Below, piece by piece: positions 5,162 to 54,800 of a stretch of 64,000 nucleotides of DNA. Every line of letters starts with the position of its first letter. Position 1 is the first letter of the stretch. The position numbers were made by a program, and so were the translations under genes. The notes below the pieces were generated by a model, which was not told where the DNA came from, did not search any database, and was given only the letters and a program-made list of their open reading frames with translations. The stretch is taken from positions 918,501 through 982,500 of the forward strand of contig JAVTLE010000005.1 of NCBI GenBank assembly GCA_033439295.1, in the 5' to 3' direction. The DNA comes from Deuterostichococcus epilithicus. Its lineage: Eukaryota; Chlorophyta; Trebouxiophyceae; Prasiolales; Stichococcaceae.

Positions 5162-7893
<2,732 letters not shown>

Positions 7894-8841: not shown

Positions 8842-11800
8842 ATGACTCTCTCCGACAAGGTGATCTGTGTGGTCTGGACACAGAGTCGAGGTCCGCAAAT
8901 CGCTCGCATCAATCACAGGACCTTGATCAACATATTTGGCTTGGTCTCGGGCGTAGGAACAGCGCTTGCTCGACGACCTTGCGGCGGAGCGTCAGGAGCA
9001 CCTAACAGCAGGGTGGTCAGAGGAAGGTGGGCCGAGTGCTATTGGTTGTTCGCATCTCGAACCCGAATTTAGGACCTATACGCCGCAAGCAAGGCCTGAC
9101 CTGAGCCTCGTGGCCATGTGGATCCACGATAGCCCGGCAGCGGCACAACAAGCTGCCCGCACGCCGCACAGGCGTGTCGGACGAGGACAAACGGCGCCTT
9201 GCGGCGCAGCTGGCGCAGCTGGACGAGGCGTACCCCGGCGGCCTCCTTCAGTACATCCGCAACGCCCGTCGCCTGCTGCAGGACTCGCGCGAAGGTACCT
9301 GCTGGCAGCGCTTGCCACCTACGCACCACCTTGCTCACAATCCAGCCGGGATGTTGGCGCCATGCCATCACGATGCAGAGGCGTAGCATCCTGTGCGTCC
9401 ACTCGCTGCAGAGGGCCGGAAGGTAATATGTCAAACCATTCAATTCCATGCCATGACCATGGCGCCGCATGTTGCGCAGGCAAGAACGCTTTTGACGGCT
9501 ATTTTCCCAGTGTGCCGGAGGGCGAGAAGCTGGACTACGGCAGCGACCACTGCAATGAGCTTGAGACGCTAGGTGGGCTTGCTGTTTGTGTCCCGGTGCA
9601 AGCCACCAGGCCAGGAGTAACCTTACAATGATAACACGCCGCATCCGGGTGGTGGACAGCCCCTTATTCCCAACTGGGCTGTGCAACATGGGCTGTGCAA
9701 CCCAGGTTGGTCGCACAGTGCTGGTGCTGTTGGATGACGACTGGCCGGAGTGGTTGCCACTCATGCTGTACAGGCGTGGAGGCAGCGGCAGAGGCGGCCT
9801 TCGTGCTGGTGGCGGGCGGCCTGGGCGAGCGCCTCGGCTACTCTGGCATCAAGCTGGCGCTCCCGTCCGACTCTGCCCGTGGCGCCTGCTTCCTGCAAGT
9901 GCGCCCTTGTGCATGCCGAGCAGACCCAAAACCATACACTGCCACAACACCCCGGGATGCGCCGCCGGTCGCCCAAAGGCTTGCACGAGCTGTCCCGGCG
10001 ACCCTTCACGCGATGCGGACGGTGCCGGCAGCAGTGGGACGGCCGGCGGCGCTGTCAGTCGGTGAGTCAAAGAAGGAACGAAAGCATCCTGGGCAGGACT
10101 TGAACCTAGACCCATGTCCCTGTCTGCAGCTGTACATCGAGAACATCCTGGCGTTGGAGGCGAAAGCCAAGGCGGCCGGGCGCAGCACCGGGCGGCCTCT
10201 CCCGCTGGCGATCATGACCTCGGACGACACCCACGACCGCACGCGGGCGCTGCTGGAGGAGCATTCGTATTTCGGCGCCTCGCCGCAGCAGATCCACCTG
10301 CTCAAGCAGGAGAAGGTGAGGCGCTGGTGGCTGTTGGAACAAAAAGATACGTGATAGCAGACTCTCCTTCTGTGTTGCCACGCAGAGGCGGAGCCTCGTC
10401 TGGGACAGGGTTGTCATGGTGCCGCGACGGCTGCTGGGGCGGCGCCAGCGCCGATGATCACTGGGAAAGGCCGCACGTTTCAGCGGTTTGGTATGTGCAC
10501 GGGCGCTGACACCACCTGCCGCCGCCCGTGCATTGCGAGCTGAAGCTCGGTGCCCTGGCACTGCAGCCACACTCTGCTGATGGCTTTGCTGCCAGAAGCT
10601 GCTGGACTTCCTTGCCGCCGCAGGGCCGAAAGTGACGCGGATGGACCCAGTAAAACCCCTTTCGGATTTAGAGTGTCACTGATCCACCTGTGTGCCTCGT
10701 CTGCTAAGGTGTAGGCAGCCACAAGCCGTTGGTGAACAGCTTCGTGCCCTGCCGAGGGTGCAGTGCCTGGCGGTGGACTGCTTCCGCTTCGGAGTCTCGC
10801 ATTCCCATCTCTGTTCCTCGTCCGCTGTATGATGCAGTGCCTGGCGGACAGCGCTGAATCCTCCGTGTCTTGCCGTCCCAGGTGCCGCGCTTGGCGAGCG
10901 GCGAAGCGGCGCTGGCGCTGGACTCCAAAAGACCACTTGCGGATCTGGAGTCTCAGTGCTTGACACCTGCGCTGCACCGACACAGGTGCCCTGCCTGGCG
11001 GACGGCGACGCGGCGCTGGCTCTGGATCCCAAGGATTGCTTCCGGGTGCAGACCAAGCCGCATGGGCACGGCGACGTGCACGCGCTGCTGCACTCCAGCG
11101 GCCTGGCAGCAGACTGGGCACAGGCGGGGGTCAAGTGGGTGTGCTTCTTCCAAGACACCAACGGCCTCGTGTTCCGCGCCCTGCCCGCCGCCCTGGGTGC
11201 GGTTTCTTGGCTTGATGTTGGATTGAACGGGGATTGACTATGGTCCGGCTGACCGCCCCGCCTGCATGCTGCCAGTCCCCTGCCAGGCCCCTGTTGCATT
11301 CCAAATGCTTACAGGGATCCTCGAGGGCGATGGAAATCTGAAACATCTGCCAGGCTCCGAGCCGCCAGCCTGCGCGCTCCCATGAAAAGTCATTGAGCAT
11401 ACATGGCGACATAGTTGCTGGGACCAGTCACAAAATTGATGTGCAGGCGTCAGCGTGCGCAATGACTATGACGTGAACTCGCTGGCGGTGCCGCGCCGCG
11501 CTAAGGAGGCTATCGGCGGCATTGCGCTCCTCAAAAATGAGTCCACTGGCCACCAGGTGTGTGTCCTTCCTAATGTTTCTTGAAGCGATTTATACTGATC
11601 TTATGTTATGCAGCAGCTGATCACAGCATGACCTGCTGCACCTGTACTGGCGGCTGTACATGCACTGCACGTGGAACCTCATCTGCCACATCAAACGATC
11701 TCTGCAGCACGCCAGCTCTGGCATGAACGTCAAAACGAAACCAAAAATTTGAAATTGAAACCCTTTCATTCCCGTCAGATGACCATCAACGTGGAGTACA

Positions 11801-14339
11801 ACCAGCTGGACCCGCTGCTGCGCGCGACCATCAACGCCGACGGGGACGTGAACGATGACACCGGCTTCTCGCCCTTCCCAGGTCGGTCTCATCTCCTGCA
11901 CTCGGCGTCTTGCCGTCTGGGTGCAGCAAGCTTGCGCAGCGACCCGACATTGAAGCAATATATTGTAGACAGGGCATCGGGGGCAGCGGCAGTTGCAATC
12001 AGCTTGCAATCAGCTTGCAATCAGCTGGGTATGACTGCAGCGATCGGAGGTGATTCAGAATGGCGCCAACACAGACGGAGAACACATACATGCGGACCAC
12101 CCAATTCTTCGCAGCCCTGTCGACCCTCGCTTCGGTGCCAGCTGACTCTCCTTATGACGCGATCCTCCTCGTGACGCCCTCCGCACGGTGCAATGCTGCT
12201 GCAGGCAACATCAACCAGCTGGTGCTGAAGCTGGAGCCGTACGTGGCACAGCTGCAGAGGAGCAGCGGCTTGATAGCCGAGTTTGTCAACCCCAAGTACA
12301 GGGACGCCAGCCGCACAGCCTTCAAATCCGCCACGCGCCTGGAGTGCATGATGCAGGTGAATGATTTAAATTTGGTCCTCAGGAGTCATACGACAAGCTG
12401 CAAGGATATCACAAAGCACAGCTGCTCACTCCTGTTGTTCCTGCCCGGCAGTGAGCGTGTGCAATGTGAAGCGCAAACGCCGATGCTGGCGACATCGGGC
12501 GCGGGCCCGGCGCCCGCGCCTGCACGGCATGGTCCAACGTGGAGAGGGTTTGATGTGTTGCCCAACCTCGGTGTGGCTGTTGTGGCACAGGACTACCCGA
12601 AGGAGCTGTCTGCGGATGCAAGGGTCGGCTTTACTGTCATCAACCAGGCGCGTTCCCGCGAAACAGAAGCTGCAAACGCTCGCCTCGCGTCCCGTGCCAG
12701 CCGGGCATCACATGCACTCGGCATGCACAGGACTGCACCCCTGCACGCCAGATGCCGGCAGGTGCATGCTCTGACGGTGTCAGTGGCTTAGACATGTAAC
12801 AGGCGACCTCCTACCGACCTGCGCAGGTGTGGGCGGCGTACTCGCCAGTGAAGAACTCTGCGGCGGACGCGGCAGCCAAGGTGGAAGCCGGGCTGCCCAG
12901 CCACAGCGCCACCACGGGGGAACTGGACCTGTATGCCGCCAACTGCAGGTGATTGCCAGGACGAACAGCTGCAAAGGAAGGGTCTTAACAGGAGGCCTGC
13001 ATCTGATGGCGGGTGGCAGTTGAAGGAGCGGCGCGCCTCCAGCACACCGCCAGACGGCTTATGCAGTTGCAGACGATCAGTTGCGCCATGCGCCCCCTTG
13101 CCTGGATTACAACAGCAGCTTCTGACTTTCACATGTCGGGCCAGCGATCCCCACCGTCATCATCCCACGGACTCGCACTTGGTTGCAGGATGCTGCGGGC
13201 GGCAGGGGCGCGGGTGGCGGACCCCACACCGGCGGCTTTCAACCGGCTGAGGGTGAACCTGTGGCCGCGCGTCTCCTGGACGCCTGCCTTCGCTCAGGCA
13301 AGGCCCGCACAGCAATGCAGGCGGGAGGAAGGATGGCCTGTGGGCGGGCATGGCACTCGTGCGCTTGCGCGTCATTGGACCCGCGCAGGCCGATGACACT
13401 TGCAAGAACGAGCGGAACGCAGAGGCACAGTGCACGACTAAAACCGCACACACCGTGACCGTAGTAAAGCGGCAAGCTGCGCAACGAGCAACCTGACAGG
13501 CGGCCTGCTCTGGATGCGCAGACGGCGGTGGAGCTGCGGGAGCGGCTGCCGGACCCAGGGAGCGTGTGCATCGGGCCGCAGGCGACGCTGGTCATCGATA
13601 TTGGCAACGTCGAGCTGAAGGTGAGCCCTTTGAGGGTGTTGCCTGGCTCGTGGCGTGCTGCCTTCGAGTGTTGCCATGGAGCAGCCGGTCCGGCTCATTG
13701 CCCGTCTCCTGTACCCGATCGCCCAGCGCATGTAGCTGCAATACATCGTGCATGACAGTGCCCCAAGGGCTGCTCGCTGAGGCGGGGTTCAACTGGGATG
13801 CACAAAATGGCGCTGGAATGTGCGGCCTGCAGCTGTGAACGTCATATAAGCGGTGTGGGCGCATGACACGGCAATCATCAATCTTGCAGGCACTGCAGCT
13901 GGACGGCGCACTGCGTGTCTCTGGCACGGCCGAGGCCCAAGTCGTCATCGACGGTTTGCATGTAAAGAATGCCGGCTGGCAGTGGCGGCCGCTTGATGAC
14001 GGCAATCAGGCGCGTGTGTTGGGAGTCCCAAAACCCCAAAACCAATGCTTTCAGATGCTTCATGTAGGTACTTGACGCTGGCTAATCCGAGGCGGCCAGA
14101 GGCACGCCACTTGCAACTGGGGCGCCCAGTCGTGGTCCAAAGGCCACCGGCACAGGTGTGCTGTGACATGCGCTTTTGTGACAAATGGCATTCTCAAATC
14201 CATGCAGACGGAAGAAGAGGCAATGCGCGGCTTCCGGGTGGAGAAGCAGGAAATCAGGAACCTGGTCTGCGACCAGCCGCTGCTATACTATCTACGCGCC
14301 GCCGAGACCAGCACGCGGCCGCTGGCGGTGGCGCAGTGA
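8842..14339 (+). CDS. USP: UDP-sugar pyrophosphorylase
   Basis: Converts UTP and several sugar-1-phosphates to UDP-sugars, feeding wall and glycan synthesis. Sixteen exons: 8842-8859, 8957-9026, 9172-9294, 9480-9572, 9774-9898, 10130-10315, 10986-11196, 11446-11556, 11779-11881, 12204-12356, 12591-12647, 12826-12948, 13189-13297, 13522-13620, 13890-14009, 14208-14339. They sum to 1833 nt (610 aa), the normal family length. The nucleotide-binding loop is [15 protein letters not shown]; other family blocks are [75 protein letters not shown] and [16 protein letters not shown]. Exon 1 codes for only six residues (MTLSDK) and was chosen because it joins in frame to a plant-like N-terminus. Three introns begin with GC instead of GT. 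Intron 6 contains decayed copies of the next exon. Confidence 0.95.
10610..10985 (+). repeat. Decayed tandem copies of the start of USP exon 7 within intron 6
   Basis: The real exon starts at 10986 and encodes [17 protein letters not shown] copy at 10882-10930, behind its own AG, reads [16 protein letters not shown], matching at 12 of 16 residues. Further upstream, GCAGTGCCTGGCGG occurs near 10755 and again near 10834. The flank reading roughly GGATCTGGAGTCTCA in the nearest copy recurs in weaker form near 10660 and 10790. The spacing is about 80-105 bp. I read this as three older partial copies of one exon-edge module. Confidence 0.65.
11994..12026 (+). repeat. Three perfect 11-bp tandem units in a USP intron
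   Basis: TGCAATCAGCT is repeated three times without error inside the intron between USP exons 9 and 10. It is a small minisatellite with no visible coding role. Confidence 0.9.
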
Positions 14340-40102: not shown

Positions 40103-43100
40103 ATGGCCAGCCACTGCTTGCCTGGCGGCTTTCCGTTTGCAAGCCTGCATCAATGCCGCCGACTGCAGCTCAGTCGAGGCGCTGCTTGGGTGCTGCCTGC
40201 GAGGCACACACCCTCCACGGGGCAGCGTGCATGTCGCGCCAGAGCCAGCGGCGAGGAGCCCGACTGGGACGCCGAGATGCAGATGTTCAGGGAGCGCACC
40301 ATGCGCCCGAACCAGCTAGAGACGCTCCGCAAGGCGGAGGAGCAGGACATCGATGTGGGGGAGGTGCGCCGGCGGCGCGGCCTTGCGCACGCTGCGCCAC
40401 TGTTGCAACTTGTTTCGCAAATTCCAATCATCGCCAGTGGTCTCGGGTCGCAGGTGCTGTTTGTAGGCGAGGGCCTGGCGATCATCGACGGCTTGAATAA
40501 CGATGCGCCAATCGGGACCACCCTGTCATTCGTCAGCGGCGCCACTGGGTGAGCCATCGCGCATGGTCATGCACACGTTTCCCGAAAGCCTGCACAGTGC
40601 ATGCGGCATACATCAACGCGAACGTGACGGCGCATTCACCCGGACATGCGATGTGGCAGGGCGCTGATGTGGCGGCGCAGCGACAACATCTGCTTTGCGC
40701 TGCTGCTGGGCGGCGGCAGCGGCGTCACGGTCGGCGAGCGGGTGGAGTGCAAAGTGAAGGGCATCCTGCAGGTGCCACATGCATACGACACTTATTTGCA
40801 CCCACACATATGCATGGCCCTGGAACCATCGATTGCATGACCCTGGACGTTGGCACCTAGCATCGGTTGTGCAGATTGCCAAGGTACCGCAACACGTTTC
40901 ACTTCCGGTTCAGGTCGTCGATGCATCGTCGGGGCCCGCGACGCAGCGAGACTATGAGCAAGCCTCAGTGCCGGCGGGCGACGCGCTGCTTGGCCAGGTG
41001 ACATGCGCTCATGCCCTGGAGCCGCGGAGCATGCACCGGAATATCATTGAGATCTGCAACGGCACATCCTCAGTGGCATACGAATAAGCCCCACGGTCTG
41101 CCATCCCAACAGGTTGTGGACTGGCTGGGGCGGCGGCAGGGGGAGTCCCAGCCGATTGGCGGCGAAGTGCGCATTCCGCTGTTCAACGAGCAGCTGGACA
41201 TGGACGCACGCGAGCAGATTGCAGAGGCGCTGACCACCGGCGTTCGGGTGAGCATCCGGTCGTGCGCCTCAGATGCGTGCTGTGGATCGCGCGGCAGGCC
41301 TGCGCCGTACCGGCAGTGTCGCTCGAGCAGCTCGTCGAGCCCCAGTTTTCAGCAGTATGTAGGTGCGCCTATGCTCGCGTGCACTCAGGAGAGCAGGGGG
41401 TGCGGGGGCTCCAGAGCCAGAAGGGCCCAGCAGGCCTGCAGGTGGGGGCATCAGTCCCTGCTCCCGAAACCCTGGTCAGCCCTTCCAGCCCAGTGCCGCC
41501 GCTGCACGGCAGGCGCTGGACATTCTGACGCCGCTGGGGCGGGGGCAGGCGCAGCTGGTGACCGGACCGCCGGGTGCCGGTAAGACGCTCGCGGCGGTGG
41601 ACGCCGTGCTCGGGCAGGCCGCCTCGGGGGTGCGGTGCGTGTACGCCTCGGTGGCGCAGAGCGGCGCGCGGCAGGCGGCGGCGACGGCGGCGCTGCGCGA
41701 CGGCGGCGCGATGGCCTACACCACTGTCGTCGCAGCGCCAGAGGGTGCGGCGGTGCCTCGCATCCCCGTTGAGGGTTCAGGGCTCCCTGAAGTGGGAGGC
41801 GTTTGCTGGCCGGGGCAGAACAGCCTGGCGGCTGCATCGCTGAGCGTCGCCAGCGCTTGCCCTGCGGCACCAGGGGGAGGTCGCCGCGCAGCTGCAGAGG
41901 AACTCTCCGCTGGCAATCCGAGCACTGACCCATGACGGAGCGGTCGTCTTGCCCACTGTCAGGCCCATCTGCAGGGGGGAGGGGGGAGGGGGGGGACAGG
42001 TCGTGTCAGCCTCCGNGACAGCCTTGGACTCACGATCCAGAAGGGCTCGGAGTGAGAGCTTGTCTAACAGTCAACCCTTTGGCGCCTGCGCGCAGGCGCA
42101 TCGTTGGGGGAGCAGTATGGCACGCTGTGCGCCGCGGTGTCCATCGCCGAGCGGCTGCGGGATGCCGGCAGCCACACACTCGTAGTGCTGGACGATGCCT
42201 CCTGCATGGTGCGCCGTGCGCCGTGCGCCGCGTGTTGGCAGTGCTGTGTCTCTGTAGAATAGCCGTTGGCGGAGCGTCGGTCGAGTGGTCGGATATGCGG
42301 AGCTTGCCAGGTGTTGCCCGTCTTGCCTTTGTGTGCGCTGCTGTGACGGGGATCTCCAGGCTGGTGCACTCGTGTGCCTCGGCTCATCCAGCGCCGGCGC
42401 TGCAGCTTGCATGCTTCAAGCACGATGCCTGTATGGCCCAGCACTGGGCATGCGGCCCCATAGGCACAGAAGCACCGCATCCGCCTGTGGAGCGGACAGC
42501 AATGTGGAACCGGACCGTGGCAGCCGGCGATGTGAGGCCCTGAGGCGCTGACTTCAGCGTGAAAACTTGTGCGGCGAACGCGGGCACCTGGAGTACATGG
42601 TGTGTTGCCGCACCCAGACGGCGATGTGGGACCGCATCACGGCGGCGCTCGCGCAGCTGGGCCCGGCGGCGCTGGCGCTGCAGGAGGGGCAGGAGGATGT
42701 GGACGTGGGGGCGATCTCGGAAGAGGCGCTTGTTGAGTATGAAGGGATGCTCATCTCCGCCGCGGCGGCGCAGCGGCGCAGGTGGGCGGCAATCCTAAAA
42801 CAAAACAGAAGTGCTGCGCCTCTCGACCATGCTGGCGCTCTTGCCGTGGGCGTCAGGCTCGTTTGAGGGTCCTCATTGCGGCAGAGACAGGTCAATGCAC
42901 GCCCTGCTGCGGCACCATGAACACGCTGCCACCTTGCCGCGTCTGTGTGTCAAAGCAGGCTGTGCAGCTGCGGCTTCAGGTCTGAATGCGGGTCGCTTGC
43001 TGCTGCAGGTTCTTCTCCTCGCTGGTGCAGCGTGCTGCAAAGGTGCACAGGCGGCGTGGTGGCGGCAGCCTCACACTGCTGATGGTGCTTCCAGGGTGGG

Positions 43101-44908
43101 TGTCCTTTCTCCTCCTCTCCTGCTCAGCCGTCCCTTCACGCGTCCGCTGCTGCCACATCCACCGCACAATGTCAAGTGGTGCCAGGCCATTCTGCCTGGG
43201 TGTGATACACGTCTGGCATCCAGTGCCGCACAGCAGGGGTTCCGCGGCCCGCCGCATGTGGCTGCACGTCAGCCAGCAGCCCGTGCTGTGCTCGCGCAGG
43301 CAGCCGGCGTCGGGGGCGGCGCCGCGGCCGCGGGCGCCCACCGCCGGCTACAAGCACCTGTCGCCGGAGCAGCAGACCAAGCTGGAAGCAGCACTGGCTG
43401 GCAGCGCCGGCGCGCAGCAGACGGATGCCGAGGCGGCCGAGTGCATCCGTACAGAGGTGCGGCAGGGCGGCAGAGTATGTGTGTGCGCCCTTTTGCTGGA
43501 GCCGTCAGGAGACCGCTGCGACAAGGCAGTGTGGAGGTCTGCGCAGTGGCACTCTGCCGGCTGCTCACGTCCACGCGACATGCTGCCACCACTGACACAG
43601 CCGCGTCGCTGGACCGGTGTGCTGTTGCGCAGCAGGGCAGCGTCGCTGCATGTAGAGAGTTTACGATCCGTTCGTTGTCCGGCGGAGCTGCGACCCTCAG
43701 AGCTCATCACGAATCCTGCTCTGTCTACGTCGCCCCGCAGGTCGTGGAGGAGTTCATGTCGCTTGCGGACGGGCAGACGGTGCTGCGCGGCGGCGGCGGC
43801 GGCAGCGGCGAGGCAGGCATCTCTGTGGACGCTGCACTCAGCGTGTCGCGCATCGGCTCGCGTGCGTTCCCGCCGGCACTGGAGGTCCTCGCCCCCCAGA
43901 TCAGGTGCCCCGCCCGGTTTGTTTCCACCATGCCTCGTGCGTGCTCCTCCAGCCGTGAGGTGCAGGGGTGGAGGCGAAGCTGAACCCGGTGATGGCGGCC
44001 GGCGACTGGCTGCGCCACGCCGCCCGCTTGATGCGAAGGACTGCAGTGTAGCCTCAGTGCCGGCACACCGACCCACATGCGGCGCCGCAGGTTCGAGCTG
44101 GCGCAGGCCGCGGACGTGGACCGCTTTGGGGCGCACACCAAGGCGGCAGACAACAACCGCGCTGCGCTGCAGCGGGCGGCAGTCGTGCAGGCGGCCCTGG
44201 AGCAGCCGCCGCGGCGGCCGGCCAGCCTTGTGGACGAGGTGAGGCTGATGGGTCGGCCCACGTGGGTCAGCATGGCTGTGCAGCGCCAGGGGACACTAAC
44301 TTCGACTCAGTACTTGCAACGATTTAACAGTTCAACTTAGAACTTAGTATCCCCTGGCAGCGCTATTGAGTGCCAGCAGGGACGCTCGATCTGGCTCTGG
44401 GTTCTCGGATTGACATGTCGTGAGCGGGGGGAGGACGATGGTTCGCAGCTTGCAGGGCAGACTCTGCAGCGAAGAGTGGGACCAACTTTGGCATTTGGCA
44501 GCGCTGTCTGCAGGTGCTGGCCAGCACCTGCAGAACAGGGCAGCTGCATGTGCCGTGCAGCTTGCTGCCCAGGGCTCTCGCTTCGATGTTCACAAACAGG
44601 CAGAGGCTGTGAGACTTCTGGCGAGCCTGAGGTGAGTGGCTGTCTTCTGCAATGGATGGTGTTGAGCGTTGACATCTGTCGGTTTCATGGGATTCCCACA
44701 GGTCGTGGAGCTGGTGGGTCTGACTGGCGGCTTCCTTGACGGCGTGGCACCAGAGTCTGTGCGGGCGGTGCTGGACGAGGCGACGGCGTCGCTGCGGCGG
44801 GAGGCGCCGCAGCTGCTGGACGACATTGCGAGCACGGGGCGGCTGTCGGAGGAGCAGAAAGTGGAAGTAGCAGACTCCTTCAAGCAGCTGGCGGCGGCAG
44901 CGCGGTGA
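40103..44908 (+). CDS. Diverged ATP synthase F1 alpha-like protein with plastid transit peptide
   Basis: Thirteen exons (40103-40363, 40454-40548, 40660-40771, 40914-40997, 41113-41247, 41513-41744, 42096-42208, 42618-42781, 43008-43095, 43300-43455, 43741-43904, 44091-44238, 44702-44908) sum to 1959 nt, 652 aa, against about 505 for normal F1 alpha. After a transit peptide (MASHCLPGGFPFASLHQCRR) come the alpha beta-barrel (VGEGLAIIDGLNNDAP), LDILTPLGRGQAQLVTG, and Walker A GPPGAGKT in place of the usual GDRQTGKT. Next are Walker B LVVLDDASC, SLVQRAAKVHRRRGGGSLT, the arginine-finger segment ALSVSRIGSRA, and the C-terminal helical bundle ending LLDDIASTGRLSEEQKVE. Two insertions, after Walker B and before the VSR segment, explain the extra length. 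It is far too diverged to be the conserved mitochondrial ATP1. Its function is unknown; nucleotide binding is likely. Confidence 0.85.
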
Positions 44909-45506: not shown

Positions 45507-48500
45507 TCACAAGTCGACATGCTTCTCCGGTTCTCTGAACAGCAGCTGCTCCGTCGTCAGCTCTCCCTGGGAGCTGGCCTGCAGGCGCAACACTCCTTGA
45601 CGTAAACGCCGGCAGAGAGATAGATGAGATGCATAAAGTAAATCTTCTCGCGCCAATATGCCGCTGGAGCAACCTTTGGCAACATGCGGTGGAACCCCCC
45701 AATCGCGTGCGCCAGCCGGGGCGTGCCGGCCGCGCCAGACGCAGCTCGGGTTCAATATTCACGACTTTTCAAATGAGCCAACTTGATGTGCGAACATCAA
45801 ACCGTCCTCGACAAGCAAACAGCAGATGGCCTCACCTGCACAGGGCTGCAAGGCACGGTGACATTGGCGGCCTGCAGGTCGGCCTCGGCGTCGCCCGCCG
45901 CCTCGGCCACAACCGCGCCGGCCGCCACGACGTTGCAAGTGCCGCAGAAGCGCAGCCCTTTGCACGCTGTCTCGTGGATCTCCAGCCGCCCCAGGTCTGC
46001 CTGGGCACAGGAAAAGGAAGTTTGACACGGAACTGTGTGGACGAGAAAGTTTCTGGCAGGGTCACCAAGAGATAGAGAGATACACACCACGCAGGGCCAG
46101 GGCGCAGCCTGCGAGGAGGTTGCACTGTGCTTGCGAGCAGCCGCTGCACTTGAGGCAGGGGAAATTGCCACGCGGGCCAACGGCAAACGCTCAACCAGAC
46201 ATGCAGGGTCGCAATAAGGCCTGCGAGAGCACTCCGGCAGCGTTTCACGTGGATGAAGTCCTTCGAGTTGTCGAGACGGCGCTCGTCAGCAGGCGCAACC
46301 TGCCCTCAGCAGGCTACCCGGATGCCTGTGCCTGCGCAATTGCGGCTGCCAGGGCAGCAAAGCCGTGTGGCCAAGCCTCGGGCGCAGCGCAAGGCTTACC
46401 ATGGTGCGGATAAAGCGCTCCTCGGCGGCGATGGCGTGGCTCTTCCAGTGCCGCCGCGACCAGTTGAAGCCGTACAGGTGCAGGCTGGCGGCCGCCGGCT
46501 TGCAGTCCAGCGCCAGCATCAGCCCTGGGCGGCCATAAAGGCTAAGCTCCTGGTGAAACGCTTATCTTGCCGCCTCAGCCGCGCTGACAGCGACTCGGCA
46601 TTTACAACCACCGTCACCTGCACCACGCTGGAGTTTCCCAAGGAAGACGGAGTGCTCAGGAAAGTTGCAGATTATGGTGCCTGTATTGGTGCCTGGGCGG
46701 CAATTCACGCAGCAGCGTGCGGAGGCGGCAGCGCGCAGGCGCAGCTGCTGCCAGCAGTCGCGGATGTGTTCGCTTCATGCGACATCAGCGGGACGAACGG
46801 CTGCCGTGCTCGCTGCATGCCGGGCTCCAGAAGAACACGTCTCAATCCAAACCCCAACGTCCAAACTCACCGATCCAGCCCGTTGAGGGGCTGCCCAGTG
46901 GCGCAACGTATGCCTGGTACAGGTTCTTCCAGGGCGCAAAGGGGATGCCCTGCCACGTCAGCTGCTGCGCGATCTGCGGGAACGCTGCGGCCGCCGCCGT
47001 GACGGTGTACGGGTTGAACCACCATGCGGATCCTGCGCAGTTTCAGAGCTGTTGTTTGGTGGCCAGCACATGCTTTGACGACCACGCCATTGGTTTGGGG
47101 AGGGGGGAGCAGCAACCCACATGCTGTCAGGGCGCTTGAGCGCCCGGCTAGCACACCACGGTCTGTTGGAGTATTTGCAGCAAGTGAACTGCATCAGTGA
47201 AGTGCAGCAGCCATGAGTTGCAGTGCCGGTCCGGGGTTTGGCATGTGTCAGAAGCAAGGCGGCAGGCTCCACTGCAGCAGAGCCGCATTCCGTAAATCGC
47301 CTGGGCCCCCTTCCCTTGTGGCTTGCACGAGACACTGGAGTACTGGAGCACGACCTCAGGCGGGTGAGGCACTTGTGCGCGCTGCGAGTGAGGGAGGCGC
47401 ACCGCCAAACATCCACAGCACGGGCGCGAAGCCCAGCACCTCGCCTGTCTGGCAGTGCGCCAGCTCCCCGAGACCGTGCCACCTCAGCTTGGCGTCCTCG
47501 GCCGCATGCCGCAGCAGCCACACGTCCACACGCTCGCCGCAGAACCTGCGGCGGATCGAGGCGAGGAGTCACTGGTGACTGCTCTGATTTGCGGCGTCTG
47601 GTGATGTCGGCGTCTTCTGCTGAGCAACGTGTGGCGAGCACGCAGTCAACGGCAGCTGCATCGGCTCGCCGCCCATGCATTCCAGCACATCTGCTTGTGG
47701 AGGCAGCCATGCCGTGCGTCGAGCGTCGGAGCCTGCCGCCCCATTGGCTTATGTAGTTGGGATCGTCCCGGTGCTGTCCCTTGACCGCTGCAGACTGCTG
47801 CACGACAGGCAGTGGCCCGCCCGTTTCCACCGAAAAAAACCCCCTCACCTGTTGTTCATCTTGTTGAAGCGGACGACCAGGTCCGACGCCGCGACCTCCA
47901 GCCGCTGCGCCTCCGTCAGCGGGCCGTTGCCCACCAGGGCGATGCGGGCCGTCGGCCGCATGTAGAAGGCGCCACATGTGCGGTGCCGCTTGAGCGCGGC
48001 GCGCCCCTCCGCCGGCAGCGGCCGCATGAGCTGCGGCTCGGCCGCGCTGCTCTTGTTCAGCAGCGCGTACGCCTGCTCCACGCTAATCGCGTCCTGCGTC
48101 GTGACCGCGGATGCGGACTGCGCCCGCTGCGAGGCTGCCGCCGAGGCTGCCGCCGCTGAGGCGTCCGCGACCTGCGCAGCCACTGCCGAAGCTTCTCGGG
48201 CCGCGGTGTCCTGCTGCTGGGCTTCCCGCTCGGCGGCCCGCGCTGCGGCCTTCTTCCGCTGGGATGCTTCCTGTAGGCGGACGGCGGCCTCGATGGCCGC
48301 CGAGTCTTCCAGGGTCTGCCCCAGCAGCGCCCGTGTCTGTGCAGGATCGTCATCCCATTCGGCTTGCCCTACGCTGTCCGGCGACCTGCCAGCCAGCTGA
48401 TAGAGCGACGGAAGCGTTCCTGATCGCTGCTGCCTCATGTCGGAGCAAGCCGGACGTGCGGTGCACAGCAGAAGAAACAGTAGTGAGATCCCTGAAAAGT

Positions 48501-48896: not shown

Positions 48897-51800
48897 TCAG
48901 CAGCTCTGGCCCGAGCTCCTGTTGCCGCTGCGGGCGAGCGCCTGCCGCGCGCCGACAGACTCGAACATCTGGCCGCCCTTCTTCAGCAGCTCGCCTGCGG
49001 GCATGAGCCGGATTCCATCACACCTGCAAACTTCAGCCTCGACGGCCTCGGGTCCCGACCTTTCAATTCCGGCTGCTTGGAACCGCTCTTGGAGCGTGCG
49101 CAGCGTCACGGCAATCGCAGGATTTCGCAACACCAAGCCCCTCAGCCAGAGTTGACTTGGCAGGGTGCACAGCAGATCGCGCGACAGGCGCCAGGTAGGC
49201 GCACGTTTCCCACACACCTGCTTCCCGGAGGTCGTCCAGCAGAGGCTGCACCTCCAGCTGCAGCTCGATGCGGTCGGCCAGGGTGTACAGCTGGGAGACC
49301 GTGAAGGCAGCGCTGCCCTTGGCCAGCGCCGCCCGCTCCAGGGCCGCCAGGAAGCGCCGCCCCTCCGCCTGCGGCGGCGCTGACGACATGCCCCTGTCAT
49401 GCTCGAGCTGCAAGTCAAAGCGGCGTGCGTCCGTCCCACCCGCACTCGGTCGCCTGCCCCATGGACCCGCCTCCCGCGGCGTGCGGCGCGACCGTGACCA
49501 GGGCCAGCTCGGCTCGCGACGCAAGCTGCAGGGTCGCTTACTCCTGATGCGGCGCAGAGGCGCCAAGCGCAGTTCGTGCTAAAGATGGATGGTGGAATTG
49601 CCATCCTTGCGGACGGCCCTGCAAGGCGCATCAGCGGCACCAGCGAGCGACGCCAGGCAGTCAACCTGTAGAGTTGAATCTCTGCCAGAGGCGCACCGCC
49701 TTGTTGCCGCGGGCACCGCCGGAGGCGCGGAAGTCCTGGAGGCCGCCCGCCTCCTCTAGCACCCGGTCCGTGGCGATCTCCTTCACCAGCTCGATCGCGT
49801 CCTGCGCGCACCCGCAACCGGAGCAGGATCGGGCCGGGGTAGTCCGGCATAACCTCACAGGCAGTGAAGTCTCGCCTGTGCCCCCGGGCAGCGATGTCGC
49901 ACAATGCTGCACCAAGGTGGCAAACAGGGGGGAGGTTGGGCGGACACATGCAAGACGATGGGGGCCACAAGGCGTCCGCATTCACAGAAACGGCAATATT
50001 TTCCTGCCGGCGCTTTGACGCCGCCGGCGCTGCTGGCACGCTGCACCTCGGCGTGCTCGCGGGTGACGGTGGGGCTCAGGTCCACTCGGGCACGCGCCTC
50101 CGCCAGACGCACCAAGCTCTCCAGCTGCCTCGCCTGCAGCGCAGGGGCACGCGGGAATGTCTGCGCAAGGGATACGGGGGAGGATCCGACACCCCGCGCA
50201 ACGTGACGCTGGCGCGCCGGTCGCTGCGAGCCGGTTGATGGCACACCCCCTAATATCGCCACAGCCCTGCATGAAGAGCTGGATTCGCGTGAAATGCAGC
50301 GACCTCCGGCACAGGCTCAGACAGCCGGCCCGCGCGGCACCAGGGCCTACTCTGGCCAAAATGGGCAGGCGCCAGCGTCCAGTGGCCAGCCAGGCTGTCT
50401 CCTCCAAATGCGGCGCACCGTGACGGGGGTGCCGTCCATGAGGGTCGACTGCTTGCGCAGCTTCAAGTAGTGAGCTCGCAGCAAAGCCTTGGCCTCGTCG
50501 CCCAGCCGAGGCGCGCAGTATTGCCGTGCGTACGCTATGTACCTGCGTGAACAAAACGGTTCCTCAGCGCCTTGATACCTTGGAAAGGCACGCTGCACGT
50601 GCAGAGCCCCCCCCTCCCGGGCGCCGCGCGCACCAGGGGATACCGAGCTCAACAAGTAGGACTCAGTATCTTCTGAGCGCACGGCAGCGGCAGAGCTCTC
50701 GGCAAGCTGGCTCATGGCTGCGGCCCGAGACCGCCGGACATTTGTGTTGCACAAGCTGTACAGGCCCAGCCTCGTCGGGCACAGTCTCTGGCACTCGGGC
50801 GGCAGGTCGGAAGTCCGATGCCGGAGAGGCGCCGGGCGCACTTCTGCAGCAGCTGCGTGGGGAGCGCCTCGTGGCAGTCGTCCGGCAGCAGGCGCAGGCG
50901 GTCCGCCAGCGGCGGCGCCGGCGGTGCGCTGCAGCCGCCGCTGCCGGGCGGCCCCGTCAACAGCCGCACCGGGCGGTACTCCAGCAGCCTTTGTCGCGCC
51001 TCCGCCTCCCTGCCGTCCTGGCCTGAGCAGCATATGTGCGGCCACCTTGGAGCGGAAAGCTGTGAAACGCAGTTTTGGAAAGAAGTGCATCATTGACGAT
51101 ACCCGGCTGAACCGCAAACAGCCGCTGCCAACCTCCACGCTTCCCTGCCCTGGCCCGAGGACGTCCAAGCGAAGTGACAAGACTTTGACTATAGCGAGAT
51201 TGGACTTCACAAGTCCCCTGTGCATTGCGCAGAGCCAGCGGGTGCCACTCTGCAGGCGCTCTGCATGGCAGCCACCTCAAGGGGCACCTGCCGGCGGCTG
51301 CAAGACTGTCTCGTGGTCGGTGTCAGGCACGCGGGCCTCACCCGAGTGCAGCGCTATGATGTGCTCCGAGAGGTGCCTGTCCCGCTGCTCATCGGAGGCA
51401 TCCAACAGAATGAACACCAGATCGAAGCGGCTCAGCAGCGGCTCCGACATGTTCAGGTTCTCCAGCACCGTCGCCGACCGCGTGTAGTGCCCTGCGTCGG
51501 GGAGCATCTGGCTGTGTTTGAAGTCCTCAATCTGACTTCGGCAGGTGCAACACATCCAGCACGCTGACCTGGCCTTGGAATGGCGCCTGAACAGAAAGCA
51601 TGGAGCACGGTGGCATCGCAGACCAATTGGTCTCTTCTGAGCCTGCCGTCTGATTGATGATGGAGCGCAAGCGCCCATCATGAGCGTCTACCGCGCATTC
51701 GACCGCCAGTTGCTCACCGTTCTTGGGGTTGGCGGCCGCGAGGACGGCCGTGCGCGCCGGCAGCGTCGCCACCATGCCCGCCTTGGCGACAGACACCTCG

Positions 51801-54800
51801 CCCTGCTCCATCGCGATCAGCAGCGCCTGTAGCGCCCCGAACACATCAGAATGCCGGCAGAGTACGTCAGAATCACAGCCCTGCGGCCGGGCCTGTTAGC
51901 AGCGCCACACGCTCGCCGAGCCGGGCGCCGTCGCTGCGGCTCGAGCGGCAGACGCGCGGCTGCTCGGCACAGCAGTATGTCACCTTCGCTGGCTGCGTCA
52001 GAGCAGGGCCCAGACACGGCTCCGACACCCAGACGAGCAGCCCGCATCCACCCCGACGGCTGCAACCTCCAGGCAAGGCCCCTGCAACCAAGCCTGCCAC
52101 GTCCTAAACCCTAAACCCTAAACCCATCCTCGCCTGGTGGTCCGCCGTCAGCTTGTCGAACTCGTCGACGCACAGCAGGCCCCGGTCCGCCAGCACCAGC
52201 GCGCCCGCCTCGAGGCCGAACTCGCTGGCGCCGTCGCGCACCACCGCCGCCGTCAGCCCCGCGCAGGTGCTGGTGTGGCCGCAGATGTAGACGCCGCGCG
52301 GCGCCGCCGTCGCGGCCGCCTGCACGGCGCACATGCAAGCGTCGCGCGTCACGCAGCGGAGCCTGGTGAGCGGGAGCATGCGCTGCATCCGAAGTGGGTG
52401 GAAACCTACCGCCTTCAGATACAAGGCCTTGCCTCGAGATGCTGCTCCATTGGTTGCGGCGGCAATTCGCTTAGACGGCAGCTGGAGGTCTCTCGGTGTG
52501 ACGCCCTTTGCGTCGTGCCGCACCTGCAGCAGCTGCGACTTGCCGAGGCCGGGGTCGCCGACGACCAGCATGTGGATGTCGCCGCGCAGCGCCACCTTGC
52601 CGGCGGCATCGCCCCCCTTGCGCACGCCGCCCAGCAGCACCAGCAGAATGCCCGCCTGCGGCGCAGCAGGGGTCTCGCGCTTCCGGGTTGCGACTGCCAA
52701 TGAGACTTCCCTGTGTGCGGCCTCAAGAAAACAGGCGGGCTGCGACACAGCTGGGTAGTTTCTTCGCATGTCTCAAGGCAGAGCGGCACACTGAAGACGC
52801 TTGCTACAAGTCGCATGGGGACAGCCGCTGACAAATCTGCAGTCACTGACCTTGACGAGCTCCTGGCCGTAGATGCTGGGGCACACCGCATGCACCAGGT
52901 GTCGGAACTGCCGCCCCGCAAATTGCTGCAGCGTCAACAGGCACTGTCAAGTTCAGCAGTGGACCAAGCTTCAGAGCCAAAACTGGGCCGCGGCCTGCCA
53001 TGCGAGTCCAGGCAAGCGTACGGCATGGTGATTCGAGGTGGTAAGCACACTTGAGGATGGGGTCCTATAACTCCTACAGGCAGGGGGCCGGCACCTCGCT
53101 GAAGGTGACGATGAATTGCAGCTCCCTCAGCGTGAAGCCCGGCGCGCTAGACTGCTCTGCGCTGAGGGTCCTGTATGCACCGAGCATGCAGACTCACGTT
53201 ATGCACCCCTGACACATGCCGAGTGTGCGCATAGTGATGCACAAAGCTGCCTGGAACACCCCAGTGCGGCTGAACCGTAGCAGGCGAGGCGCCGCAAGGC
53301 CTCCCCAAAGGGGCAAGCCGCGGCATGGCAACCTTCAGCTATTGCAGCCAAAACCGCATGCAGGGTCGGGCTGCAGCCTGCCGCTGCATGAGGTCCGCTT
53401 GCCAGCGAGGCAGCCCGCAATACGACAACTGTCAGACGCTGCAGTTGGGAAGAGCAGGAACGCACGCAGGGTCGGGCTGCGGGCTGCCGTTGCCCTTGAT
53501 GACGTCGACTGACACTGCGTCCACGTACAGCAGGAACAACGACTGCTTGTCCTTCTTCTTGGCGCCTGCGCGGCGGCATCAAGGGGCGAAATGAAAACGA
53601 GAGTCAGCAGACGACCGGGCAGGAAGCATTGCGAGCCTCCAAGATTGAAGCTCAGGAATTTGAAGAGCCTGCAGCCAGCTACTGCCTGTCTTGCTAATAG
53701 CTAGCAACGACCATGACTTGCACGCATGGCCAGCGTAAGCAGAGATATTTAAGCTTCACAGCCCGAGCGGAGCCGCGCGGACACCGCCCACAGTCATGCG
53801 GACGCAGCATCAGGACGAGCGGGACCGGCACCAGCAGCAGCCCGGGGCAGTCGCACCTGCCGCTGCGTCGGCGTTGAGCACCTTCACGAAGCCTAGCACA
53901 CGCACGATGTCGCCCACTGAGGCGGCCTCCACGAGATCCGCCGTCAGCTCCGCCTCGAGCGTCCGTGGGATGCGGCCCTCGTCCTCCTCTGCCGCAGCAC
54001 CCGAAACCTCCTGCATTTCTCATGATGATGTTCAACCCGGTTCTCAGGGCAGGTGTCGAGAGGGTGCGCTGGATGCGGCCCTCGCAGGCCTTCGCCGTCA
54101 CGCCCGCCACCTGCATGTCCGAGATGTGATATAAGTGGGGCAGCTGCCAGTCAAAGCACAGGGCGGCAGCGCGGGGCGCCCTTTCGAAGGCAGGGTTCAA
54201 CTCGTTGGGCATTCGTGCAACAAGGGTGTGAGCTGTATGCGACCACGTAATCGTCGCTGCGACTCGCCATTTCCAGTCGAATGCTGCAGGGTTGGTTCCT
54301 TGGCATGACGTGACCATAACAGGCGTGGAGGCTTTGTGCTGAGTTCTTTCCCGCATGCATGAGCGGCTCCGCCCCAGACCTGCAGCCGCAGGCGGCGCCA
54401 GTCGACACTGCTGGCCGACGCGCGGTTGGGGGCAAAGGTCTTGCCCCGGCAGCTATTGGTGGGGCACCGCATCGGCGGAGAGTAGACACCGTCGACGAAG
54501 CGGCCCGCCTGTTCCTCGCCGCAGGACCCGCACACGAAGCCCATACCGGTGATGAGGGGCTGCGTGCCGGTGGCGCGCACTACGGTGCCCGTGACCGTCA
54601 CCAGCTTGCCTGTGCACAGTGAAGAAGCGCTGTGCTCACGGCATACGGCAGCACCACAGCTGGGACCCAGCTCGAACTTCAGCGACTTCAGCTTCTGCCT
54701 TTCAACAACTTGCGCGGTGTCCAGCTGGGTCGCACCCTCGCATCATGTGGCGGCGGGGCAGCTGCATGCGAGTCCACAGCGTCACGAATCCACCTCAGGG

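Follow-up and report, generated by a model that had tools for sequence, protein, structure and literature searches.

The alpha subunit of ATP synthase is among the most conserved proteins. Its partner, the beta subunit, is capped by the factors Atp11, BFA1 and BFA3, which are a precedent for the role considered below (PMC7607909). On the alpha side, no chloroplast equivalent of the chaperone Atp12 is known from that paper, which suggests that its task may have passed to proteins newly evolved in chloroplasts. A nuclear alpha-like protein of algae is not described in the titles and abstracts among the literature matches listed. The window analysed here (the whole stretch of DNA, 64,000 nucleotides of Deuterostichococcus epilithicus contig JAVTLE010000005.1) carries a gene for such a protein.

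The gene is located on the + strand at 40103-44908, where 13 exons separated by 12 GT-AG introns form a single open frame from the ATG at 40103 to the TGA at 44908 (Table 1). The clean joining of 13 exons proposed in the first-pass annotation was therefore reproduced, with a product of 658 or 641 aa instead of 652. The longer product comes from a first model with the most obvious splice sites and the shorter one from the preferred model, in which all 12 acceptors are CAG; across five splice models the length ranges from 600 to 686 aa. Nearby alternative splice sites were scored at each junction against a local alpha HMM, a scoring that favours the removal of insertions. The base sites scored best at six of the 12 junctions (1, 4, 5, 6, 11 and 12) and 0.1 bit under the best at junction 8, and higher-scoring alternatives were found at junctions 2, 3, 7, 9 and 10 (by 10, 16, 5, 13 and 5 bits, respectively). 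The preferred model adopts the new acceptors at junctions 2 (40660) and 3 (40947). The exon 3 start at 40681 was rejected since acceptor 40660 fits alpha better, and the exon 4 start at 40875, with the 24-residue barrel insertion that it creates, was discarded because 40875-40946 looks intronic (codon log-odds -8.6).

Table 1. Exons and main features of the alpha-like gene, in positions of the window.
Feature	Position	Strand	Remarks
Exon 1	40103..40363	+	putative leader aa 1-50, then acidic segment EEPDWDAEMQMFRERTMRPNQLETLRK
Exon 2	40454..40548	+	beta-barrel
Exon 3	40660..40771	+	beta-barrel; acceptor 40660 preferred over 40681
Exon 4	40947..40997	+	start preferred here; a start at 40875 would lengthen the exon
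Exon 5	41113..41247	+	
Exon 6	41513..41744	+	nucleotide-binding domain
P-loop GPPGAGKT	41564..41587 (in exon 6)	+	alpha form: GDRQTGKT
Exon 7	42096..42208	+	Walker B DD at 42191-42196
Exon 8	42618..42781	+	alternative acceptor 42726 (GAG) would remove the insertion
Acidic/Ala-rich insertion	42657..42758 (in exon 8)	+	at alpha RPPGREAYPGD loop
Exon 9	43009..43095	+	
Exon 10	43300..43456	+	bulk of the E/A/Q-rich insertion (~44 residues) ahead of the SITDGQ segment
Exon 11	43741..43904	+	MSLADGQ 43756-43776; SVSR 43840-43851, bearing the alpha arginine finger
Exon 12	44091..44238	+	C-terminal helices
Exon 13 and stop	44702..44908	+	C-terminal helices

Codon statistics were trained on 15 loci, excluding L012 and L014, which had stops in their stretches. 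Twelve of the 13 exons showed a positive codon usage score that was also the best of the six frames, and none of the 53 intron and intergenic windows scored positively in any + frame. The coding signal of the exons is not due to chance, and the earlier argument against a pseudogene holds to the extent that the gene is not evidently one. A decaying gene that has kept its frame and little of its function is very unlikely. The very long branch of the product and its rewritten sleeve loop, both described below, would suit decay, as would the fact that a pattern search confirmed no relatives among 14 candidates from viral contigs and 16 from genome contigs, but the codon signal, the lack of stops, the 12 GT-AG introns and the intact P-loop, Walker B and Arg finger speak against it. 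A match at C3:1029864 (E 0.7) looked unrelated on visual inspection.

Concerning the N-terminus, the putative leader (aa 1-50) is basic, with a net charge of +7 and without Asp, Glu or Lys, yet its codon usage does not look coding (log-odds -15.0 vs +16.1 for aa 51-87) and its GC3 of 33/50 is near the intron GC of 0.63. Plastid targeting, which had been assigned from the sequence, is thus unproven, and a presequence for mitochondria, or translation from a later Met, would fit equally well. The acidic segment after the leader (EEPDWDAEMQMFRERTMRPNQLETLRK) is reminiscent of the plastid and cyanobacterial alpha N-terminus IRPDEI, which the N-terminal MRPNQL of the product resembles. The N-terminal segment was also considered as a shared domain and rejected, with no second copy in the genome and no PDB match.

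The product is an F1-alpha homologue and an alpha-type paralogue. The Pfam scan showed PF00006 (E 3.4e-21, 76.3 bits vs a gathering threshold of 29.5) and PF00306 (E 2.5e-11, 44.5 bits vs 27) in the order expected for the F1 alpha/beta superfamily, and the barrel, nucleotide-binding and C-terminal parts were all found. The best NCBIfam alpha models reached 205 and 179 bits, with FliI/SctN at no more than 62.5 and beta at 43 bits among the 25 of 41 families listed; Rho, like FliI and SctN, scored far under the alpha profiles. The alpha-type fold order that had been read from the sequence is therefore well founded. At the same time, the AtpA/ATP1 equivalog cut-offs were missed by 305 bits for TIGR00962 (179 vs 484) and by 349 bits for NF009884 (205 vs 554). 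Identity is about 29% to the plastid and the mitochondrial alpha of the same genome and 26-33% to 23 alphas, and 55 of 97 alpha-invariant columns are retained vs about 30% identity overall. Normal alphas are present on the plastid and mitochondrial contigs of this alga and the alpha-like gene was found as one copy separate from them, which agrees with the annotation of the product as neither of the two.

In the tree, beta and FliI separated at 100/100 from the alphas and the product, and with these outgroups the 23 alphas grouped without the product (95/97, where long-branch attraction is possible). The product attaches between the beta and FliI split and the 23 alphas, basal and not nested within normal ATP1 or AtpA, on a very long branch that measures 1.8-3.2 substitutions per site, depending on the data set. 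A sister position to the alga's own Atp1 (p-AU 0.053, 0.014, 0.040) or AtpA (0.067, 0.112, 0.052) is disfavoured, not firmly excluded. Placement inside or sister to the plastid/cyanobacterial alpha clade gave p-AU of 0.186, 0.097 and 0.188 with this very long branch, and a sister position to the Nonomuraea alpha was not rejected either (0.43, 0.57), the branch being too long to fix the position. The product lacks the insertion of about 8 residues after the P-loop helix of mitochondrial and alphaproteobacterial alphas. This insertion is present in the own Atp1 and in the mammalian, Methylobacterium and Nonomuraea alphas, partly present in Phocaeicola, and absent from plastid, cyanobacterial, E. 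coli, N-type and Limosilactobacillus alphas.

Regarding the active site, the lists of catalytic-interface and adenine-pocket positions and their bovine numbering are those that we take to be correct. The diverged P-loop that had been annotated, the generic GPPGAGKT in place of GDRQTGKT, was confirmed and keeps the P-loop Lys and Thr. The Walker B DD, the Mg Asp, the Arg finger (SVSR) and the DGQ segment are kept too. The adenine pocket is largely lost, with F357, R362, P363 and Q432 all changed. Hence, the conserved ATP-binding residues claimed earlier stand for the P-loop Lys/Thr and the Mg Asp and fail for most of the adenine pocket. Eight of the 10 catalytic-interface positions are identical to alpha, a retention that is not significantly enriched (vs 47/87, P 0.18); Asp347 and Ser370, which are among these eight, and Ser372 are found in the own beta too. 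The catalytic Glu position after the P-loop strand is Gln, as in ordinary alpha, in an alignment of which Rho is not part. Because the catalytic Glu is absent, the separate ATPase that had been suggested is highly improbable: a self-standing hexamer of the FliI, Rho or beta kind would fit the generic Walker A and the Arg finger, and is opposed by the Gln, by the low FliI, SctN and Rho scores and by the position on the alpha side of the tree.

Two insertions had also been annotated. On the alignment, the one in exon 8 falls in the alpha RPPGREAYPGD loop (bovine 287-293), at the position of the beta PSAV sleeve loop, and the one in exon 10 (bovine 337-340) adjoins that of the beta DDLTD catch loop. 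The roles of PSAV as rotor sleeve and DDLTD as catch loop are those given in PMC9447477. Both insertions have positive codon scores (+5.0 for exon 8 and +10.1 for exon 10), and alternative acceptors that remove or shorten them fit alpha better. In exon 8, acceptor 42726 gives 226.6 vs 221.6 bits, 5 better, and removes the insertion; it was kept as an alternative and not adopted, since it is a GAG acceptor and discards 42618-42725 (codon log-odds +11.1). In exon 10, acceptor 43405 is 13 bits better and would leave 9 insertion residues. Both insertions depend on the splice choice, and codon usage favours the longer forms. When the exon 8 insertion is spliced out, the same loop becomes 7 residues shorter instead, so the PPGREAYPGD loop is lost either way. 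The loss of sleeve-loop residues is not significant (3/10 kept vs 52/87, P 0.10).

Where the models with the insertion were aligned, a Gln takes the place of the PPGRE Arg, a residue that we count as E. coli alpha R283. According to PMC9447477, R282E abolished ATPase and R282Q cut it about 10-fold. It is quite unlikely that the product joins complete ATP synthase under some conditions as an alternative or regulatory alpha (isoform or brake). The full alpha domain order, the kept Arg finger and the MRPNQL segment would be natural in such a subunit, and the rewritten rotor-facing loops, the Gln and the large distance from the AtpA cut-offs would not.

Taken from its sequence, the product seems to keep the beta-docking face of alpha but with rebuilt rotor-facing loops. 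Our preferred reading, which is tentative (probability of about 0.35), is a functional nuclear pseudo-alpha gene whose product caps the beta subunit as an assembly holdase or brake. Of the functions offered in the first-pass annotation, this corresponds to the regulator or assembly factor. It would keep the alpha face that closes on the beta catalytic site (Arg finger and the equivalents of Ser344 and Asp-Gly-Gln), with its own adenine pocket mostly lost and its rotor-facing loops rewritten. We infer that it could act as a placeholder or assembly holdase on beta that is still free, either CF1-beta or the mitochondrial one, or could instead keep a ring inactive, until true alpha or gamma displaces it. 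An exon-by-exon search of the genome, which sets a lower bound, showed no extra beta and no extra gamma with which a separate complex could form, and this counts in favour of the capping role. ATP12 is present in the genome; a search for the ATP11 family gave no match, nor did its controls, and the Pfam scan of the product found neither ATP11 nor ATP12.

The same lack of a partner in the lower-bound search, together with the branch length and the altered adenine pocket and rotor loops, would also suit an alpha-derived protein outside ATP synthase biology, such as a scaffold or nucleotide sensor, with the kept residues as fold constraints only. This is doubtful, as the S-V-S-R and D-G-Q residues, whose function in alpha is at the beta site, would not be needed by the fold alone.

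If the capping reading is true, a nuclear pseudo-alpha with a beta-facing Arg finger and rewritten rotor-facing loops would amount to a novel mode of F1 motor assembly or braking, and it could fill the chaperone role that is seemingly lacking in plastid alpha/beta assembly. By extension, although this is unlikely, algae might have a lineage of such pseudo-alphas, derived from alpha but without a motor function, in which the preserved Arg-finger interface docks on beta, the rewritten loops exclude gamma and the protein stands in for the missing plastid Atp12. Should the gene occur in one alga alone or not be expressed, it would be a curiosity of gene duplication.

Among known systems, the Mycoplasma F1-like ATPase alphas (MMOB1660 and MSC_0619 types) are reported as alpha paralogues of F1-like complexes that are not of the standard type, and in this they are a precedent; unlike them, the product scores only 85 and 69 bits with their NCBIfam models, and a partner beta-like gene was not seen in the lower-bound search of the alga. 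The N-ATPase alpha (TIGR03324) is likewise an alpha homologue, 28-32% identical to the product over four members, and placement with these was not rejected (p-AU 0.71, 0.48, 0.53). In contrast to that family, the product scores 158 bits vs a cut-off of 750, has GPPGAGKT and not G(D/E)RxTGKT, and comes from an intron-bearing nuclear gene, not an operon member. F1 alpha (AtpA/ATP1; TIGR00962, NF009884) shares with it the domain order, the Walker B DD, the Gln at the catalytic-base position, the SVSR Arg finger, the DGQ segment and the C-terminal helices, and differs in the low identity, the P-loop, the adenine pocket and the rotor-facing loops, where PPGREAYPGD is missing. With Atp11, Atp12, BFA1 and BFA3, compared via the Pfam scan only, the likeness would lie in the proposed function, in which a free F1 subunit is capped transiently, whereas by sequence the product belongs to the alpha family.

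The divergent ATP synthase alpha-like gene belongs to a genome of 46.8 Mb in 21 contigs, the content of which suggests a photosynthetic alga. The gene's 13 exons, separated by GT-AG introns, join into a single open frame encoding 658 aa in the first model. Alternative splice sites near each junction were tried and the products scored against an HMM built from 23 alpha subunits, a scoring biased towards insertion removal. The first choice had the top score at six of the 12 junctions (1, 4, 5, 6, 11 and 12) and lay 0.1 bit under it at junction 8, and better-scoring alternatives were found at junctions 2, 3, 7, 9 and 10 (+10, +16, +5, +13 and +5 bits, respectively). At junction 2, acceptor 40660 regains a canonical barrel strand (ALMWRRSDNICFALLLGG vs ALNLESKNVGAVLMG). 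At junction 3, positions 40875-40946 are intron-like in codon usage, which makes 40947 the probable start of exon 4. Codon usage prefers the longer exon 8 at junction 7 (disputed part +11.1) and the longer exon 10 at junction 9 (+4.3). The preferred model encodes 641 aa with CAG at all 12 acceptors, and product length across five models is 600-686 aa. Intron 6 contains a single undetermined base (N) at 42016.

Features of the window, with the evidence for each
Feature	Position	Strand	Evidence
Alpha-like gene	40103-44908	+	
Open frame antisense to exons 10-12	43348-44295	-	315 codons
MCM8-type helicase exons	49228-52664	-	MCM P-loop domain E 3.5e-30, 3.1e-15; MCM8 winged helix E 5.4e-9
Downstream neighbour, weak 2Fe-2S ferredoxin-like match	45854-46006	-	E 0.016, below cut-off; ETACKGLRFCGTC
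Candidate light-dependent protochlorophyllide reductase	5516-7173	-	translations, by eye
Candidate UDP-sugar pyrophosphorylase	9132-11865	+	translations, by eye

With codon usage trained on 822 codons from other nuclear genes in this genome, scores were positive and the best of six frames in 12 of 13 exons; the sole exception was the long form of exon 4, whose short form scores +1.8. None of 53 intron or intergenic windows was positive in any forward frame. In exon 8 an antisense frame scores close to the sense one (9.5 vs 10.1). High GC3 is probably what produced the antisense frame over exons 10-12, given that these exons score best in the sense frame.

Pfam detected both the alpha/beta nucleotide-binding domain and the C-terminal domain in the product. 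Among the 25 NCBIfam families listed of 41, the best models are alpha subunits (205, 179 and 158 bits), FliI/SctN reaches at most 62.5 and beta 43, and no alpha equivalog cut-off is reached. The 60 PDB matches listed of 161 are all labelled F1-ATPase or ATP synthase, alpha wherever a subunit is named, one being a delta-alpha fusion. Identity is 29.3% to the plastid alpha of the same genome (AtpA), 28.9% to its mitochondrial alpha (Atp1), 18.4% to its plastid beta (AtpB) and 26-33% to the 23 alphas. No orthologues were found in the viral and prokaryote contigs scanned. In plasmid records (166 matched, 40 listed), the best places are all below 60% identity; the annotated ones of the 40 listed are bacterial alpha or FliI/SctN-type genes, two of them also covering a neighbouring gene.

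A 27-sequence tree was built with the alpha-like protein, 11 of 80 fetched cyanobacterial alphas, E. coli alpha and beta, four alternate-type alphas, four other bacterial alphas, one mammalian alpha, the genome's own alphas and plastid beta, and one FliI-family protein. Beta and FliI separate at 100/100, and the 23 alphas group without the alpha-like protein (95/97), which joins between the two sets; its branch is 2.1 substitutions per site long. Rooting on the beta/FliI side would put it on the alpha side, and how basal it looks may be inflated by long-branch attraction. The alphas-only tree supported no single placement. Constrained sister relationships gave the following p-AU values (486 columns, 175-column core and 635-aa model, in that order): own Atp1, 0.053, 0.014 and 0.040; own AtpA, 0.067, 0.112 and 0.052; cyanobacterial/plastid clade, 0.186, 0.097 and 0.188; mitochondrial/alphaproteobacterial clade, 0.50, 0.58 and 0.71; alternate type, 0.71, 0.48 and 0.53; and Nonomuraea alpha, 0.43 and 0.57 in two data sets. 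An 8-residue insertion after the P-loop helix, present in own Atp1, the mammal and Methylobacterium, is missing from the alpha-like protein. This counts against mitochondrial descent, but weakly, as Nonomuraea and, in part, Phocaeicola carry the insertion too.

A PF00006 search of the genome, with loci identified by eye from translations, recovered the alpha-like gene, uninterrupted AtpA and AtpB on C21 (211 kb), Atp1 on C20 (97 kb), a nuclear mitochondrial-type beta on C12, and vacuolar A and B on C1 and C7. In the tree, AtpA falls with the cyanobacterial sequences and Atp1 clusters with the alphas of the mammal and Methylobacterium. As C20 is small and organelle-like, both normal alphas are extranuclear, and the genome searches turned up no nuclear alpha other than the alpha-like gene. 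The own genome searched with the alpha-like protein gave no second copy. Two gamma loci match the expectation for plastid plus mitochondrion. All counts from these genome searches are lower bounds, as they were read exon by exon. ATP12 is present; ATP11 gave no match in a search without a working control, which is hence uninformative. On this evidence, the orphan alpha has no orphan beta or gamma to go with it. A doubtful alternative reading is a free neofunctionalised protein.

The first 50 residues lack Asp, Glu and Lys and contain seven Arg, a composition that fits an organellar presequence, whether plastid or mitochondrial. However, the first-pass annotation's plastid targeting is only putative: GC3 in this leader is 33/50 versus 0.86 for the remainder of the gene (chance about 1e-4 given a training GC3 of 0.87), 42% of intron-like frames would be expected to contain an open run of 50 codons by chance, and Met58, Met60 and Met67 may be alternative starts. 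An in-frame stop lies shortly upstream of the ATG.

In the 658-aa model, 55 of 97 columns invariant among the 23 alphas are kept. These include the P-loop G-K-T, both Walker B Asp, Gln at the catalytic-base position, S344, D347-G348-Q349, S370-V371-S372-R373 and Q430, while R171, Q172, T173, F357, R362, P363 and Q432 are changed (bovine numbering); the changed positions make up most of the environment of the nucleotide that alpha itself binds. A decaying gene seems improbable. By analogy with alpha, the protein should not hydrolyse ATP alone, because Gln replaces Glu; the separate ATPase proposed earlier is thus the least likely rival. It could complete a beta site because the Arg finger is kept. 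The contrast between kept catalytic-interface residues (P 0.18) and lost sleeve residues (P 0.10) is suggestive, neither being significant.

The exon 8 insertion (29 aligned residues, acidic and Ala-rich) splits the RPPGREAYPGD loop, which aligns with beta's PSAV; PMC9447477 gives the PSAV loops as beta's share of the hydrophobic sleeve surrounding the gamma tip. With the alternative GAG acceptor 42726 this insertion would be gone, the loop would be 7 residues shorter than alpha's, and PPGREAYPGD would be lost all the same. The exon 10 insertion (about 44 residues) immediately precedes the S344 segment and adjoins the position of beta's DDLTD catch loop; nine of its residues remain with the alternative exon 10 acceptor. 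The PPGRE Arg, which we count as E. coli alpha R283 and which PMC9447477 treats as R282/R283, is Gln in alignments of insert-bearing models. A built-in regulatory isoform, to be weighed with both the kept Arg finger and these loops, is rather unlikely.

We favour, with a probability of about 0.35, a pseudo-alpha serving as an F1 assembly holdase or placeholder, or as a brake. Beyond the sequence we infer every step: the pseudo-alpha would dock onto a beta subunit via its preserved catalytic-interface face, would be unfit for a turning motor because its rotor-facing loops are rewritten, and could then hold a place in F1 assembly or act as a brake. A capping role is plausible since beta-cappers are known, Atp11, BFA1 and BFA3 being named in PMC7607909, which also suggests that chloroplasts possibly use an as-yet unknown counterpart of Atp12.
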